Translations under genes and position numbers: made by a program
Notes under the pieces: model-generated
The model's input: the letters and a program-made list of their open reading frames with translations, nothing else
Databases searched by the model: none
What the model was told of the DNA's origin: nothing
Part shown: one piece after another, positions 43,395 to 49,422 of the stretch
Layout: each line of letters begins with the position of its first letter
How positions within the stretch are numbered: position 1 is the first letter of the stretch
Origin: Micromonospora chokoriensis
Lineage (GTDB): Bacteria; Actinomycetota; Actinomycetes; Mycobacteriales; Micromonosporaceae
Length of the DNA stretch: 64,000 nt
Assembly (NCBI RefSeq): GCF_000718555.1
Contig: NZ_JOAN01000001.1
Span: 124,001-188,000 of the forward strand
Direction of reading: 5' to 3'

Positions 43395-43414
43395 GCCCGC
43401 CCCGCCTTCGCGGC

Positions 43415-43489
43415 GTCGATCATGAAGTTGTGGTGCCCCGCAAAGGGTGCCAATCGCCCGAAAGTGCCCACCACAACTCCATGATCGAC
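43415..43489. repeat. 21-bp inverted repeat between convergent genes
   Basis: Arms 43415-43435 (GTCGATCATGAAGTTGTGGTG) less one base and 43469-43489 are complementary except for one A-C mismatch, with a 33-base spacer. The spacer contains two similar short blocks, CGCAAAGGGTGCC and CGCCCGAAAGTGCC. The unit lies between the stops of the Fic-like and HAD genes and could act as a terminator or be a dispersed repeat. Confidence 0.7.
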
Positions 43490-43494
43490 CCGAA

Positions 43495-43522
43495 GGGGTG
43501 GGGGTGGGGTGGGGGTGGGGGG
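43495..43522 (+). other. G-quadruplex-forming sequence abutting the HAD stop codon
   Basis: Five G-runs of 4, 5, 4, 5 and 6 bases are each separated by one T. This is an optimal intramolecular G-quadruplex pattern with single-base loops. It ends one base before the minus-strand stop codon (43523-43525) of the HAD gene. G-runs are on the plus strand; the HAD transcript would be C-rich here. Confidence 0.8.
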
Positions 43523-44326
43523 TTAGGCGGTGGTGGCGGCTCGGGTGCGGCGGTGTCGGCCGTACCAGGCGATGCCGATCGCCACGCCCACCCCGACACC
43601 CAGGGCCGCGGCAGCCACCGGGACCGCCGGCCGCTCTCGCAGACGCCGGCCCAACGGAATCGGGTGCCGGAACTCCAGCACCGGCCACGCGTTCTCCGAG
43701 GCCAGCTTGCGTAGCTGCCGGTCCGGGTTGACCACGCTCGGGTGGCCGACGCACTCCAGCAGCGGGCGATCGCTGTACGAGTCGGAGTAGGCGTACGAAT
43801 CGGCCAGGTCGTAGTCGCGGGCGGCGGCCAACTCGCTGACCGCCTCGACCTTGCTCGGGCCGGCCGCGTAGAACTCGACCTCGCCGCTGTACCGGCCGTC
43901 GCGCACCGTCATCCGAGTGGCGATCACATCGGTCACCCCGAGCAGCTCGCCGATCGGTCGGACCATCTCCTCGCCGGACGCCGACACCAGCACCACGTCC
44001 CGCCCAGCCGCCTGGTGCTCCTCGATGAGGGCGGCGGCTTCGGCGTACACGTAGGGGTTGATCAGCTCGTGCAGTGTCTCCGCGACGATCTGGCGGACCT
44101 GCTCCACCTGCCAGCCCTTGCAGAGCGCAGCCAGGTAGTCCCGTGTTCGGGCCATGGTCTGCTCGTCGGTGCCGCCCAGCCGGAACATCAGCTGCGCGTA
44201 CGCCGACTTGACCACGTCACGCCGTGTGATCAGCCCGTCCCGGTAGAACGGCCGACCAAACGCCAGGGCGCTCGACTTGGCGATGACGGTCTTGTCTAGA
44301 TCGAAGAAAGCGGCACTTCGGCCCAC
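43523..44326 (-). CDS. HAD-IB family hydrolase (phosphoserine phosphatase-like)
   Basis: This 267-residue haloacid dehalogenase-fold phosphatase has catalytic Asp9 and Asp11 (FFDLDKTV), motif II Ser in VLVSASGEE, the conserved Lys in GPSKVEAV and motif III in YSDSYSDRPLL. A C-terminal membrane helix (about residues 238-258) anchors it. HAD-IB proteins of this type sit next to the ssd/tad block in many actinobacteria; the mycobacterial counterpart is Rv3661, next to Rv3660c (ssd). Substrate unknown. Confidence 0.9.
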   Translation of the reverse strand: MGRSAAFFDLDKTVIAKSSALAFGRPFYRDGLITRRDVVKSAYAQLMFRLGGTDEQTMARTRDYLAALCKGWQVEQVRQIVAETLHELINPYVYAEAAALIEEHQAAGRDVVLVSASGEEMVRPIGELLGVTDVIATRMTVRDGRYSGEVEFYAAGPSKVEAVSELAAARDYDLADSYAYSDSYSDRPLLECVGHPSVVNPDRQLRKLASENAWPVLEFRHPIPLGRRLRERPAVPVAAAALGVGVGVAIGIAWYGRHRRTRAATTA

Positions 44327-44540
44327 GGCGCGAAAGTCTAGCCGGATGGTCTATCGTCGGCGGGTGCCCGGGGTCATACCACCCCTCAGACCTGCGGGCT
44401 GGCACCACCATCTCCGCTCCGCGTGATCGCGCTCACACTCTGCGAGGAGATTTTCGCAGTGAGTGGAGACGGCACCACTCGACGTGACGGGCCCGCTCAG
44501 GCAGACTTGTCCGTACGACGAGCTTTCACATCCTTGAAAC

Positions 44541-44652
44541 AGGCAGACCCTCAGCGGTTGCACCCCCCGTGGCCGCTGAGTGGTTCGGCTCGACCCCCCC
44601 GGAGCCGAACCTCCGACGACCCCCGTCTCCCCCCGACGGGGGTCGTCCCTTT
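44541..44652 (+). ncRNA. 6C small RNA
   Basis: Two successive hairpins have loops with six and seven consecutive Cs: stem 44550-44557/44573-44580 (loop with C6) and stem 44582-44591/44602-44611 (loop with C7). This is the defining structure of the actinobacterial 6C RNA. A third 13-bp hairpin (44615-44627/44635-44647) with a TCCCCCC loop and a following CCCTTT acts as terminator. The location, divergent from the HAD-IB gene and upstream of ssd, matches mycobacterial B11/6C RNA. A possible promoter is TTGTCC (44507-44512) and CATCCT (44529-44534). The 5' end is inferred. C-rich loops pair with G-rich mRNA sites in the family. Confidence 0.88.
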
Positions 44653-44743
44653 GCCGGGAGCGCTTCCGGCCGGGGGAGGGCGGGTTTCCCGGGCTGGCCA
44701 GCCGGTCGAGGCGACGGGGCGAGAAGCCGAAAGCGAGCCCAGT

Positions 44744-45529
44744 TCACAGCGCGACCAGCACCGCCTGGACGGGTCCCGACACCAGGAGCCCGGCCGACAT
44801 GCCGAATGGCCTTGGCAGGCCCAGGTGGATCGCAATGATCCCAACTGCGCCCGCCCCCATCAGCGTAAGGACTCGCCTGCGCGCGGCCCGATCGATGCCC
44901 ATGGCGGTGGCCAGGGTCAGGGCCAGCACGGCCGCGAACGTCAGGCCGCTGACGGCATCGCTGAGCCGTGAGGAGATCGCGAATGCGGGGTAGAACCCCG
45001 GATCGATGGAGTCTGCCGGTAGCGGCCCGTAGTAATCCCCGAGCAGAGGGGTCGCCGCTGCGGTCAGCGTGGTGACTGCGGCGGCGGCGGCGAGCAGCCA
45101 ACGCCCACGGCGCGGCAGCAGGTCCAGGCCGTGGCCGACCGGAGCGGCAACGCTCAACAGCACTGCTGCCGCGACCGCCAGCAGCAGCGGCCATGCCAGC
45201 AGGTCAAGCGACACGTCGTAGCGTCGGTCGCCGCTGATGCGGGTCGCCGCCACGACGATTTCGTACAACACGGCCGACCAGGCGCCCAAGGTCGCAGCGG
45301 TCTGCCACCCCGCAACGATGGCAAGGCTGATCGCGACCCACACGGCCGCGCGGGGCCAGGTAGCCGACGGTAAGACGGTCACCGTTTCGCCGGTGCGAGC
45401 GAGGAAGGCCGCCGCTTCGGCGAGCGGACGTAGCTGGCGAGCGGTCAGGATCAGGGTGAAGATGATGGCGACAACGACGGTCGCGTCCGCCCAACGAACT
45501 CGACTGGGCGGTTGATCGAGGCTTTCCAC
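44744..45529 (-). CDS. Hypothetical integral membrane protein
   Basis: The 261-residue protein has six or seven hydrophobic helices (roughly residues 14-32, 58-82, 105-130, 142-162, 190-212, 220-238 and 245-260) and a GTG start. I do not recognise the family. It lies between the 6C RNA and ssd, where other actinobacteria have little or nothing, so it is probably part of an accessory insert. Confidence 0.65.
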   Translation of the reverse strand: MESLDQPPSRVRWADATVVVAIIFTLILTARQLRPLAEAAAFLARTGETVTVLPSATWPRAAVWVAISLAIVAGWQTAATLGAWSAVLYEIVVAATRISGDRRYDVSLDLLAWPLLLAVAAAVLLSVAAPVGHGLDLLPRRGRWLLAAAAAVTTLTAAATPLLGDYYGPLPADSIDPGFYPAFAISSRLSDAVSGLTFAAVLALTLATAMGIDRAARRRVLTLMGAGAVGIIAIHLGLPRPFGMSAGLLVSGPVQAVLVAL

Positions 45530-46504: not shown

Positions 46505-47089
46505 GTGAGAGTCGCCGAGGCAATGGGGGTTCGGGTGGGTCCACCGAAGAAGCGGGACGAGGGCTGGTTCACCAGTCTCTACGCCGCCGAGTACGAGCGC
46601 ATAGTCCGATACGGCCTGCGCCGGCTCGCTGACCGGGATGCCTCGGCTGAGCTTGCCCAGGAGGTCTTCGTCGTCGCCTGGCGTCGCCGCGCCGAGGTGC
46701 CGGAGCGCAGCCTGCCCTGGCTGTACGGGGTGGCCCGGCGCCTGCTGGCGAACCAGTGGCGGTCACGGCGCAGTGCCCCGGACCTCCTCCCGATCACCGA
46801 TGTCGACCTCGCACGGCTGGCCGGATCGTCGGGTGCCGACACGACCGTCGGGGTCGCCGACATCTGGGCTGCTCTGACCACCCTCAACGACCTCGACCAG
46901 GAAATCCTCCGGCTGGTCGGCTGGGAGGAGCTGACGGTGTCCGAGGCGGCCAAGGTTCTCGGCTGCACCGGGGCGACCGCTGCGGTGCGCCTGCATCGCG
47001 CCCGTCGGCGTCTTGCTGAAGCAATGTCGGACCGGCCCGCGCAGACCCGGCGTAACCCGGTGTTGGTGACCATTCGAGAGGATCTGTGA
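46505..47089 (+). CDS. RNA polymerase sigma factor, ECF-like
   Basis: This 194-residue sigma-70 family protein has region 2 ([52 protein letters not shown]) and region 4 ([44 protein letters not shown]). The start could be the GTG at 46505, the ATG at 46523 or the GTG at 46535; none has a convincing Shine-Dalgarno. It is coupled to the next gene, a typical sigma-linked membrane protein. Confidence 0.87.
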
Positions 47090-48099
47090 TGTTCGGAGCA
47101 GAGCGCACCCGTACTCTTCTCGGCCCGGCCGACCCGGCCCGAACCGCCGCCGTCGAGCCACCGCTGGTCTCGGCGCGCGAGCTGATCGACCGCGCCGACG
47201 CTACCGAGTTGGTCGCCGGGCGTCGTCGCGTACACCCGACCCGCCGGCTGGTCCTGGCGGCCGGGACGCTGGCGGTCGCGGTCGGTGCCGTGGCGGTGCT
47301 CCAGCCGTTCGGCGAGGGAGCACCGGACATGCCGGGCGAGCCGCCGGCGGCCGCGGGGTTGGTGCTCGTGCCGGTCGCGTACCAGTTCGACGCGGATCCA
47401 CCGGCCGCTGGCCCGCAGCTACGCATGCTGGCCAACAAGATCAAAGACGCGGCGTACGACCACCAGAGCGGGCGCTACATGTATCACCACACCAAGCTGT
47501 GGGGCGATCCGGTGATGACGTCTGCCGACGGCCGCCACCACGTGGCCTTCGCCAGCGAGACGAAGCTCTGGCAGGCCCTCGACGGGACCGGTAACCAGGC
47601 CAGCACCCAACTGGAGCCGCAGTACCCCGACCAGGAGTCTCGGGACTACTGGCAGCGCGAGAGCATTGGGCGACCAGCAGCCACCGGCACCCCGGCACCG
47701 GACGTCATGCCGCTGCCGCCCGAGGAGCTCAGGCCGCTGTCGGCCGACCCGCCCGAGCTGCGGGAGCGGCTGAAGGTCGAGCACGGCGCGGGGGCGGCGA
47801 GCAAGTGGGTCGGCACGCTCTACGGGCAGTACGTCGTACCGCGTGCGACCCGAGCGGCGGTCCTGCGGGTCCTGGCCGACGTGCCCGGCTTCCGCTGGCG
47901 GGGGCAGGTCACGGACCGCGTCGGCCGGCACGGAGTGGCCGTCACCTTCGACGACCGCGAGCATGACCAGCAATCACTTCTGATCTTCGATCCGAAGACG
48001 GGCGAGTTGCTCGCCGATGAGCTGTTGACGCTGTCGCCCATGCGGATCAGCTCGTACAAGGTGATCCTCGATGTTGCCTGGACGAATCAGCCCGGCTGA
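47086..48099 (+). CDS. CU044_5270-type membrane protein, probable sigma partner
   Basis: The 337-residue protein has a short cytoplasmic N-terminus, one membrane helix (about residues 52-70, LVLAAGTLAVAVGAVAVL) and a large extracytoplasmic domain. It resembles proteins encoded after SigE/ECF-type sigma genes in actinobacteria (CU044_5270 family). It lacks a visible zinc-finger anti-sigma domain. The GTG start overlaps the sigma stop by four bases, with ATG as the next codon. A role in sensing or restraining the sigma factor is inferred from coupling only. Confidence 0.75.
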   Translation: MMFGAERTRTLLGPADPARTAAVEPPLVSARELIDRADATELVAGRRRVHPTRRLVLAAGTLAVAVGAVAVLQPFGEGAPDMPGEPPAAAGLVLVPVAYQFDADPPAAGPQLRMLANKIKDAAYDHQSGRYMYHHTKLWGDPVMTSADGRHHVAFASETKLWQALDGTGNQASTQLEPQYPDQESRDYWQRESIGRPAATGTPAPDVMPLPPEELRPLSADPPELRERLKVEHGAGAASKWVGTLYGQYVVPRATRAAVLRVLADVPGFRWRGQVTDRVGRHGVAVTFDDREHDQQSLLIFDPKTGELLADELLTLSPMRISSYKVILDVAWTNQPG

Positions 48100-48140: not shown

Positions 48141-48210
48141 TGTTATTGGCTCAGCGGCGCTAGCTGCGGATTTGTCCGTGCCCGTAGCAGATCAACTGCC
48201 TTGGCGGGCG

Positions 48211-48238
48211 TTATCCACAGGCCATCAAGTTGTCCACA
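48211..48238 (+). promoter_or_regulatory. Pair of DnaA-box-like 9-mers upstream of ssd
   Basis: TTATCCACA (48211-48219) and TTGTCCACA (48230-48238) are in the same orientation, 19 bases start to start. Both are perfect DnaA-box forms. They lie 80-108 bases upstream of the ssd start, in its presumed promoter region. Confidence 0.5.
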
Positions 48239-48318
48239 GGCGACGACATTGGGGCGGCCCTCGGGGCGGATTCCGAGCAGGGTCGGCGGCATACAGAGCC
48301 CGACCGCTGGAGGCCGCG

Positions 48319-49422
48319 ATGCCATCCCGTACCTCGGTTCCGCCGATCCGCCGGCTTCCGCTGGTCGTCACAGCCGACGACGATCTGCTCGATGATGTGC
48401 TCCGGCTCGCCGCCGTCGGCGGGACCGAGGTGGAGCTTGCCCGCGACCCGGCGGCTGCCCGTACCCGCTGGTCTCCTGCGCCGTTGGTGCTGCTCGGCGC
48501 CGATCAGGCGCAGGCGTGTCTGCGGGCCCGGTTGCCGCAGCGGCCCCGGCTGGTGTTGGTGGGCCGGGCTGGTCAGCTCGACCCCGGTTGGCAGATCGCC
48601 GAGCTGATCGGTGCCGAGCACGTCGCCATGTTGCCGGCTGCGGAGCCGTGGCTGGTGGATCGGTTCGCCGAGCATGACCCGGATCGTCCGGCCGGCGTCG
48701 GTGCTCGGGTCGTCGCGGTTCTCGGTGGTCGGGGTGGTGCCGGCGCGAGTGTGCTCGCCGGTGGCCTTGCGGTGACCGCCGCGCGGGCCCGGCTGCGCAC
48801 TCTCCTGGTCGACGCCGATCCGCTCGGTGGTGGCCTCGACCTCGTGCTGGGCTGGGAGCAGTTGGAGGGTCTGCGCTGGCCGTCGCTCACCGACGCCGAC
48901 GGACGGGTCGATGCCCCAGCGCTGGTGCAGGCACTGCCCAGCCGTGGTGATCTCGTGGTGCTCTCCTGGGACCGGGGCGAGATGCTGGCGTTGCCGGCGG
49001 CGGCGATGGCGGCGACTGTCGACGCGGCCCGGCGTGGGCGGGACTTCGTGGTGATCGACCTACCCCGACAGCTGGACGATGCGGCCGTGGTGGCGTTGCA
49101 AGCCGCCGACCAGGCGTTCGTCGTCGTGCCGGCCGAGTTGCGTGCCACCGCGGCGGCCACTCGGGTGGTGGCCGCAGCCGCCCCGCACTGCGCCGCGCTT
49201 TCGGTGGTGGTGCGTGGGCCCGCCCCGGGGCGGCTGCGGGCGACCGAGGTGGCACGCGCGCTGGGGCTGCCGCTGGCCGGCACGCTGCGCCCCGAGCCGG
49301 GGCTGTGCCGTGGGTTGGAACGAGGCGAAGCGCCGGCCGCCGGGGGCAAGGGTCCACTGGCCGCACTCTGCCAACGGATCGTCACCGACCTCACCGGCGT
49401 GCCGGCCACGGGTGCGGCATGA
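48319..49422 (+). CDS. ssd: Septum site-determining protein Ssd (CpaE/TadZ-like)
   Basis: The 367-residue protein has an N-terminal receiver-like part (residues 1 to about 125) and a MinD/ParA-like ATPase part with a modified P-loop GGRGGAGAS, followed by LLVDADPLGGGLD. It belongs to the 'helicase/secretion neighborhood CpaE-like' family, whose mycobacterial member Rv3660c affects septation; by position it also serves as the TadZ-like localiser of the Flp pilus. The ATG at 48319 follows TGGAGG. An open frame to 48172 would read through the DnaA boxes. Confidence 0.9.
   Translation: MPSRTSVPPIRRLPLVVTADDDLLDDVLRLAAVGGTEVELARDPAAARTRWSPAPLVLLGADQAQACLRARLPQRPRLVLVGRAGQLDPGWQIAELIGAEHVAMLPAAEPWLVDRFAEHDPDRPAGVGARVVAVLGGRGGAGASVLAGGLAVTAARARLRTLLVDADPLGGGLDLVLGWEQLEGLRWPSLTDADGRVDAPALVQALPSRGDLVVLSWDRGEMLALPAAAMAATVDAARRGRDFVVIDLPRQLDDAAVVALQAADQAFVVVPAELRATAAATRVVAAAAPHCAALSVVVRGPAPGRLRATEVARALGLPLAGTLRPEPGLCRGLERGEAPAAGGKGPLAALCQRIVTDLTGVPATGAA

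Follow-up and report, generated by a model that had tools for sequence, protein, structure and literature searches.

The window (the whole stretch of 64,000 nucleotides of Micromonospora chokoriensis DNA that was analysed) carries a true 6C RNA, in a variant with three C-rich hairpin loops that is typical of its clade. With belief and doubt about equally balanced, we propose that the first stem-loop of 6C acquired a C loop as a third seed in the clade around the Micromonosporaceae, which would have made each seed dispensable. Single lineages would then have lost the C tract of one hairpin, whether the terminator (about three times), the second or the first, and kept two each time, so that seeds would have moved within a conserved sRNA. 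The features of the locus are as follows (positions in the window).

43523-44326, minus strand: HAD-family hydrolase (PF12710), the syntenic neighbour, divergent from 6C; from a domain match and synteny
44478-44484, plus strand: upstream box CTCGACG, the proposed -35 region (TCGACG at 44479-44484); from family conservation, exact match
44500-44507, plus strand: box GGCAGACT, the proposed -10 region (CAGACT at 44502-44507, 17 nt after TCGACG); from family conservation
44514-44549, plus strand: predicted 5' leader, with a start near 44514; from the -10-like box
44550-44580, plus strand: hairpin 1, the addition, with a 12-bp stem and loop ACCCCCC (C tract 44563-44568); from fold and conservation
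44582-44611, plus strand: hairpin 2, the first hairpin of the Rfam model, with a 10-bp stem and loop GACCCCCCCG (C tract 44594-44600); from fold and Rfam
44615-44647, plus strand: hairpin 3, the second hairpin of the Rfam model and likely terminator, with a 13-bp stem and loop UCCCCCC (C tract 44629-44634); from fold and Rfam
44648-44652, plus strand: CCUUU tail after the terminator stem, the probable 3' end; from the sequence
48172-49422, plus strand: ssd/CpaE-like ParA-family protein, the conserved downstream neighbour; from an AAA_31 domain match

Identity and genomic neighbourhood of the 6C locus

The preliminary description had identified this locus as 6C RNA from its letters, and a covariance search confirmed it. 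Rfam family RF01066 (6C) matches positions 44579-44651 of the plus strand with 78.1 bits, against a gathering score of 47, and the match is full-length, with model positions 1-75 of 75 aligned to hairpins 2 and 3. These are the two hairpins with loops of about six C each that characterize 6C, here C7 and C6, respectively. No other Rfam family exceeded its threshold in the 64-kb window, and an RF01066 search of the 6.97-Mb genome found no second copy.

The RNA lies at the usual chromosomal site of 6C, beside a HAD gene and upstream of ssd. The HAD protein is 99% identical, in the best segment, to its counterpart in M. foliorum. Eighty HAD loci were fetched, 60 of which were scanned with Rfam; 6C scored over threshold in 46 of the 60 and was divergent from the HAD gene in all 46, so the site is conserved and the orientation relative to the HAD-IB gene is as first described. 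Downstream ssd-like matches are present in most of the 80 loci. We name the gene at 48172-49422 after the mycobacterial ssd, to which we take it to correspond; its protein has its best match, 42% identical, in Mycolicibacterium tusciae locus L104. The initial statement that 6C points towards ssd as in mycobacteria holds for the direction. The two are not adjacent here: ssd starts (48172) 3.5 kb past the 6C terminator, and four plausible ORFs, including a sigma factor gene, occupy the gap. In two Salinispora loci, the ssd match begins 45 and 467 nt from 6C.

Two of the intervening segments deserve a brief description. The sigma factor gene (46505-47089), which encodes sigma-70 regions 2 and 4 and which we read as being of the ECF type, is followed by an overlapping 337-aa ORF, possibly an anti-sigma gene; matches to this plus-strand segment (46505-48099) lie beside 6C in M. 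foliorum too. On the minus strand, the ORF at 44744-45529 (261 aa, with hydrophobic stretches and no Pfam match) has no homologue at E 1e-8 across the 80 HAD loci, including that of M. foliorum and many that are partial. It may have been inserted recently between 6C and ssd, or may not be a gene.

On the other side of the HAD gene, the gap that separates it from a Fic-like gene (43395-43522 in the window; loci L031-L058) corresponds to the site of Ms1 RNA in M. tusciae L104. Measured between match ends rather than gene ends, this slot spans 43-151 nt in seven loci of Micromonospora and Salinispora, compared with 352-1693 nt in 17 others. The list of Micromonosporaceae in the accessible portion of the Ms1 paper names neither Micromonospora nor Salinispora, and Ms1 may have been lost in these two genera. 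The Rfam Ms1 model, which is unable to decide absence, gave weak matches in two of 61 genomes of the family, none over cut-off.

Fold of the three hairpins

Folding of positions 44530-44670 gave -78 kcal/mol versus a shuffle mean of -53.8 (z = -6.25), and none of 200 shuffles was as stable. In the predicted RNA, the computed probability that all three C tracts are simultaneously unpaired is 0.81. The picture of three stable hairpins with single-stranded C tracts, proposed from inspection, is thus borne out by computation. The computed duplex energies are -12.4 kcal/mol for C6:G6, -15.7 for C7:G7, and -7.0 for GGAGG:CCUCC, so that, as in B11-type RNAs and as judged by computation only, the exposed C loops are able to pair with G tracts.

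The assignment of the hairpins has to be revised. The preliminary description had taken the first hairpin as one of those that define 6C and the C loop of the terminator as the unusual third. Because the two hairpins of RF01066 align to hairpins 2 and 3, the terminator C loop is the standard one, and hairpin 1, for which the model has no place, is the addition. Computation therefore supports the count of three potential C seeds, but the wrong hairpin had been named as extra. Likewise, the 13-bp terminator stem stands, but the tail that follows is CCUUU, not the CCCTTT given previously. A generic terminator scan, which demands five T, found nothing at this CCUUU tail.

At the tip of hairpin 1, CAC could instead pair with GUG, and this register was also considered. 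It has one pair broken in 15 of 84 sequences and pairs 97.0% of cells versus 98.7% for the main register, with six versus four pairs showing double changes, and was not retained as the main form.

Comparison with described 6C RNAs

The closest described relative is 6C of mycobacteria, named B11 in Mycobacterium marinum. It occupies the same locus between HAD and ssd, as indicated by synteny with L104, and carries C loops in its last two hairpins, but its upstream sequences differ from the conserved boxes found in the window, where ssd is also 3.5 kb away. According to the accessible text of the M. marinum report, B11 has three stem-loops, of which only loops 2 and 3 are C-rich, and the loop of the terminator hairpin (loop 3) is needed for regulation (PMC12395582). 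The window form shares the three stem-loops but has a C-rich first loop, ACCCCCC, and is hence a variant. As far as the corresponding account for M. abscessus goes, either C loop suffices there (PMC10470900). In Corynebacterium glutamicum, 6C has the C-rich two-hairpin core, two stretches of eight C, and a 27-nt 5' extension beyond the Rfam model, but the part of the paper available mentions no third C loop (PMC4046766). Xanthomonas sX13 likewise has C-rich loops, from a partial description (PMC3771888); we liken it to 6C by that description and claim no common descent. The literature covered yielded no Micromonospora 6C or three-hairpin form, and the original description of 6C and some experimental papers, which lie outside that coverage, could mention a third C loop.

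Distribution and conservation of the first hairpin

We searched the region upstream of 172 distinct 6C sequences from many families for a stem of at least 6 bp closed by a loop with at least five consecutive C. Within the window's own family, 88 of 91 sequences have such a hairpin; this sample is biased to strong Rfam scores and close HAD relatives. As controls, stretches farther upstream and downstream gave 0/172 each, and G loops at the same place gave 1/172. Outside the family (families are given by our codes, with names for f8, f15, and f33 read from named members), the C-loop hairpin 1 was found in f4 (5/5), f5 (2/2), f13 (2/2), f11 (1/1), f21 (1/1), f34 (1/1), f48 (1/2), and Stackebrandtia (1/2). 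It was found in 0/8 Mycobacteriaceae (f8), 0/11 Pseudonocardiaceae-type sequences (f15 and four named), and 0/7 Streptomyces-type sequences (f33 and six named), and the other families, with 1-5 sequences each, were all negative. One sequence in the set, L211, is un-6C-like and was probably read at the wrong place; L183 and L005 were given their own offsets.

Thirty weaker-scoring loci were then added, 27 of which were positive; four of them (L258, L259, L272, and L277) duplicate sequences already included, and the offset used for L286 was wrong. With the sets merged, repeats removed, and Stackebrandtia included in the family as by the search tool, 114 of 119 distinct family sequences have a C-loop hairpin 1. 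The five negatives are L060, with a run of four C; L118 and L135, with a C6 tract in a mismatched stem; L287, with a bulged stem and a C loop visible by eye; and L119, a true absence. A separate count by RNA folding gave three C loops in 93 of 116 sequences, the rest having four-C loops, unformed hairpins, or absent C tracts.

Covariation was assessed in 84 aligned, distinct sequences of the family, whose relatedness inflates the counts. Helix 1 is paired in 98.7% of cells and shows 27 double-sided changes, versus 5.1 in shuffles and 0-3 when the helix is slid. Two of five measures are unremarkable for this helix: 21/500 shuffles equal or exceed its four doubly changed pairs, and 248/500 its count of pair types. 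Support for helix 1 alone is thus good, not overwhelming, and the whole three-hairpin structure exceeds all 500 shuffles on all five measures.

The loops were compared with their own stems. In tract 1, which is a run of six C in 75/84 sequences, one letter of 499 is not C, versus variation in 190/2014 letters of stem 1. The corresponding figures are 3/580 versus 64/1680 for hairpin 2 and 21/504 versus 66/2184 for hairpin 3, whose loop is not quieter than its stem. Loop 1 is quieter than stem 1, which suggests selection on the C tract itself. This bears on a different explanation, in which hairpin 1 is a conserved 5' cap, stability element, or protein-binding hairpin and only loops 2 and/or 3 act as seeds. 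Non-C hairpins do occur at its place in Mycobacteriaceae and Pseudonocardiaceae-type sequences, and what is accessible of the M. marinum work, where the first stem-loop exists without C richness and only loop 3 is needed, also fits such a role (PMC12395582). A pure stem role does not explain, however, why hairpin 1 varies least in its C tract, nor why lineages lacking the C tract of loop 2 or 3 retain that of loop 1, and we consider this explanation unlikely, if well short of negligible.

On a tree of 61 HAD proteins, 23 of 24 rows with a C-loop hairpin 1 fall on one side of a branch with 98/98 support, together with three rows without the C loop; the remaining C-loop row (f34) stands apart, and five changes are needed overall. 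Families f4, f21, and f48 are absent from the tree, with no HAD homologue in the stretches searched, and the long branches of L166, L237, and L254 are of unsure placement. As read from these sequences, the distribution fits one early gain, a few losses, and one separate gain.

Loss of single C loops in relatives

Some relatives naturally lack one of the three C loops. The terminator C tract is absent, and hairpins 1 and 2 keep theirs, in eight loci: L054 (Hamadaea), L269, L274, L275, L286, L287, L289, and L293. In L293, hairpin 1 forms alone, and its C tract is partly paired once the flanks are folded too. On a 50-row HAD tree these eight absences amount to three changes, a number forced by the starred branches. 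In L119 it is hairpin 1 that has no C tract, those of hairpins 2 and 3 being retained, and in L294 hairpin 2 alone is without one. L292 is a borderline case of the latter kind, with a C5 run in hairpins 1 and 3, none in 2, and a first tract that is partly paired in the fold.

Several of these loci came from genomes without an RF01066 match, as counted under stricter filters. A three-hairpin model that we built was searched against 21 genomes (20 of the 37 lacking a match, plus the window's own) and matched seven, its own included. Six of the 20 RF01066-negative family genomes were thus recovered, four of which (L289, L292, L293, and L294) have no C tract in loop 2 or 3. Outside the clade, a 6C without the terminator C tract is harder to detect because Rfam scores that tract. 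None of the six listed genomes of genus g11 matches RF01066 or the three-hairpin model, and 6C may have been lost or strongly altered in that genus.

The loss of single loops with two C loops kept suggests that the seeds are interchangeable; the pattern fits this reading and is no proof of it. The second-loop losses in L292 and L294 add weight to the reading that a third seed was gained and that each became dispensable.

A promoter-like element upstream of 6C

Upstream of the hairpins, CTCGACG precedes GGCA[TGA][GA]CT by 15 or 16 nt in 78 of 88 distinct family sequences, versus a shuffle mean of 0.0. In the window the arrangement is TCGACG-N17-CAGACT, a spacing of the sigma-70 type, and the two-box element has two other exact matches elsewhere in the genome. 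A generic sigma-70 scan found no consensus promoter at 6C. The gap from the second box to hairpin 1 measures 12-15 nt in 13 of 106 loci (repeats kept) and 28-94 nt in the rest (median 43). From the -10-like box we predict a start near 44514 rather than 44541 and an RNA of ∼138 nt rather than ∼110.

Between the -10-like box and hairpin 1 lie 12 to 94 nt, which in part of the set contain an ACGAC...TTCAYRT block. A TTGTC after the boxes was read as PafBC-like, using what we take to be the PafBC motif consensus. This reading was dropped: TTGTC occurs only in part of the set, and the PafBC paper gives no 6C site in its accessible text.

Strongly conserved boxes between HAD and 6C, together with three G6/G7 tracts on the minus strand, might also be expected if conservation acted on the DNA, for instance through a quadruplex of the G-rich minus strand or the divergent HAD promoter, with no trans-acting RNA. 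The compensatory changes, however, keep RNA-type pairs including G-U, the G tracts appear too widely spaced for a canonical quadruplex, and 6C is transcribed in C. glutamicum, where the available part of the report describes a Northern signal of ∼100 nt (PMC4046766). We regard conservation at the DNA level as highly improbable.

Proposed mechanism

The explanation that we favor, and consider rather probable as a whole, is that of a promoter-driven sRNA with three C loops that pairs with G runs in mRNAs, the first loop being an extra, interchangeable seed. We infer that 6C would be transcribed from a promoter at ∼44479-44507 and would end at the terminator hairpin (44615-44652), each of the three hairpins exposing six or seven unpaired C in a row. 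On the model of mycobacterial B11/6C, from which the base-pairing mechanism is carried over, these tracts would pair with G runs at or near the ribosome-binding sites of several mRNAs, and pairing would block translation and promote decay. The first stem-loop would have gained its C loop in the clade as an additional seed, after which any one C loop could be lost in single lineages, two being kept. Since just one C loop of two was needed in M. marinum, a third need not be active here.

In a crude genome-wide target search, in which gene starts were unmapped, GGGGGG-N4-10-ATG occurs 71 times versus 63 for its reverse, and CCCCCC-N4-10-ATG 55 times versus 47, so that G6 tracts before ATG show no clear enrichment. 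This result would also suit a role of the C tracts as a sink for a C-binding protein or for another G-rich RNA, rather than for ribosome-binding sites of mRNAs, and several equal loops might be well suited to titration. Base-pairing repression, on the other hand, has been demonstrated by compensatory mutation in two mycobacteria, as stated in the portions of both reports at hand (PMC10470900 and PMC12395582), and we judge a sink improbable.

The three-loop form bears on how seeds work in a widely conserved actinobacterial sRNA that, in the literature as partly accessible, has been studied mostly in mycobacteria, where two species disagree on which C loop matters. The current RF01066 model omits hairpin 1, and a search with it missed members that a three-hairpin model recovered. 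The natural three-loop form and the relatives that have lost one loop provide ready comparisons of seed number and position.
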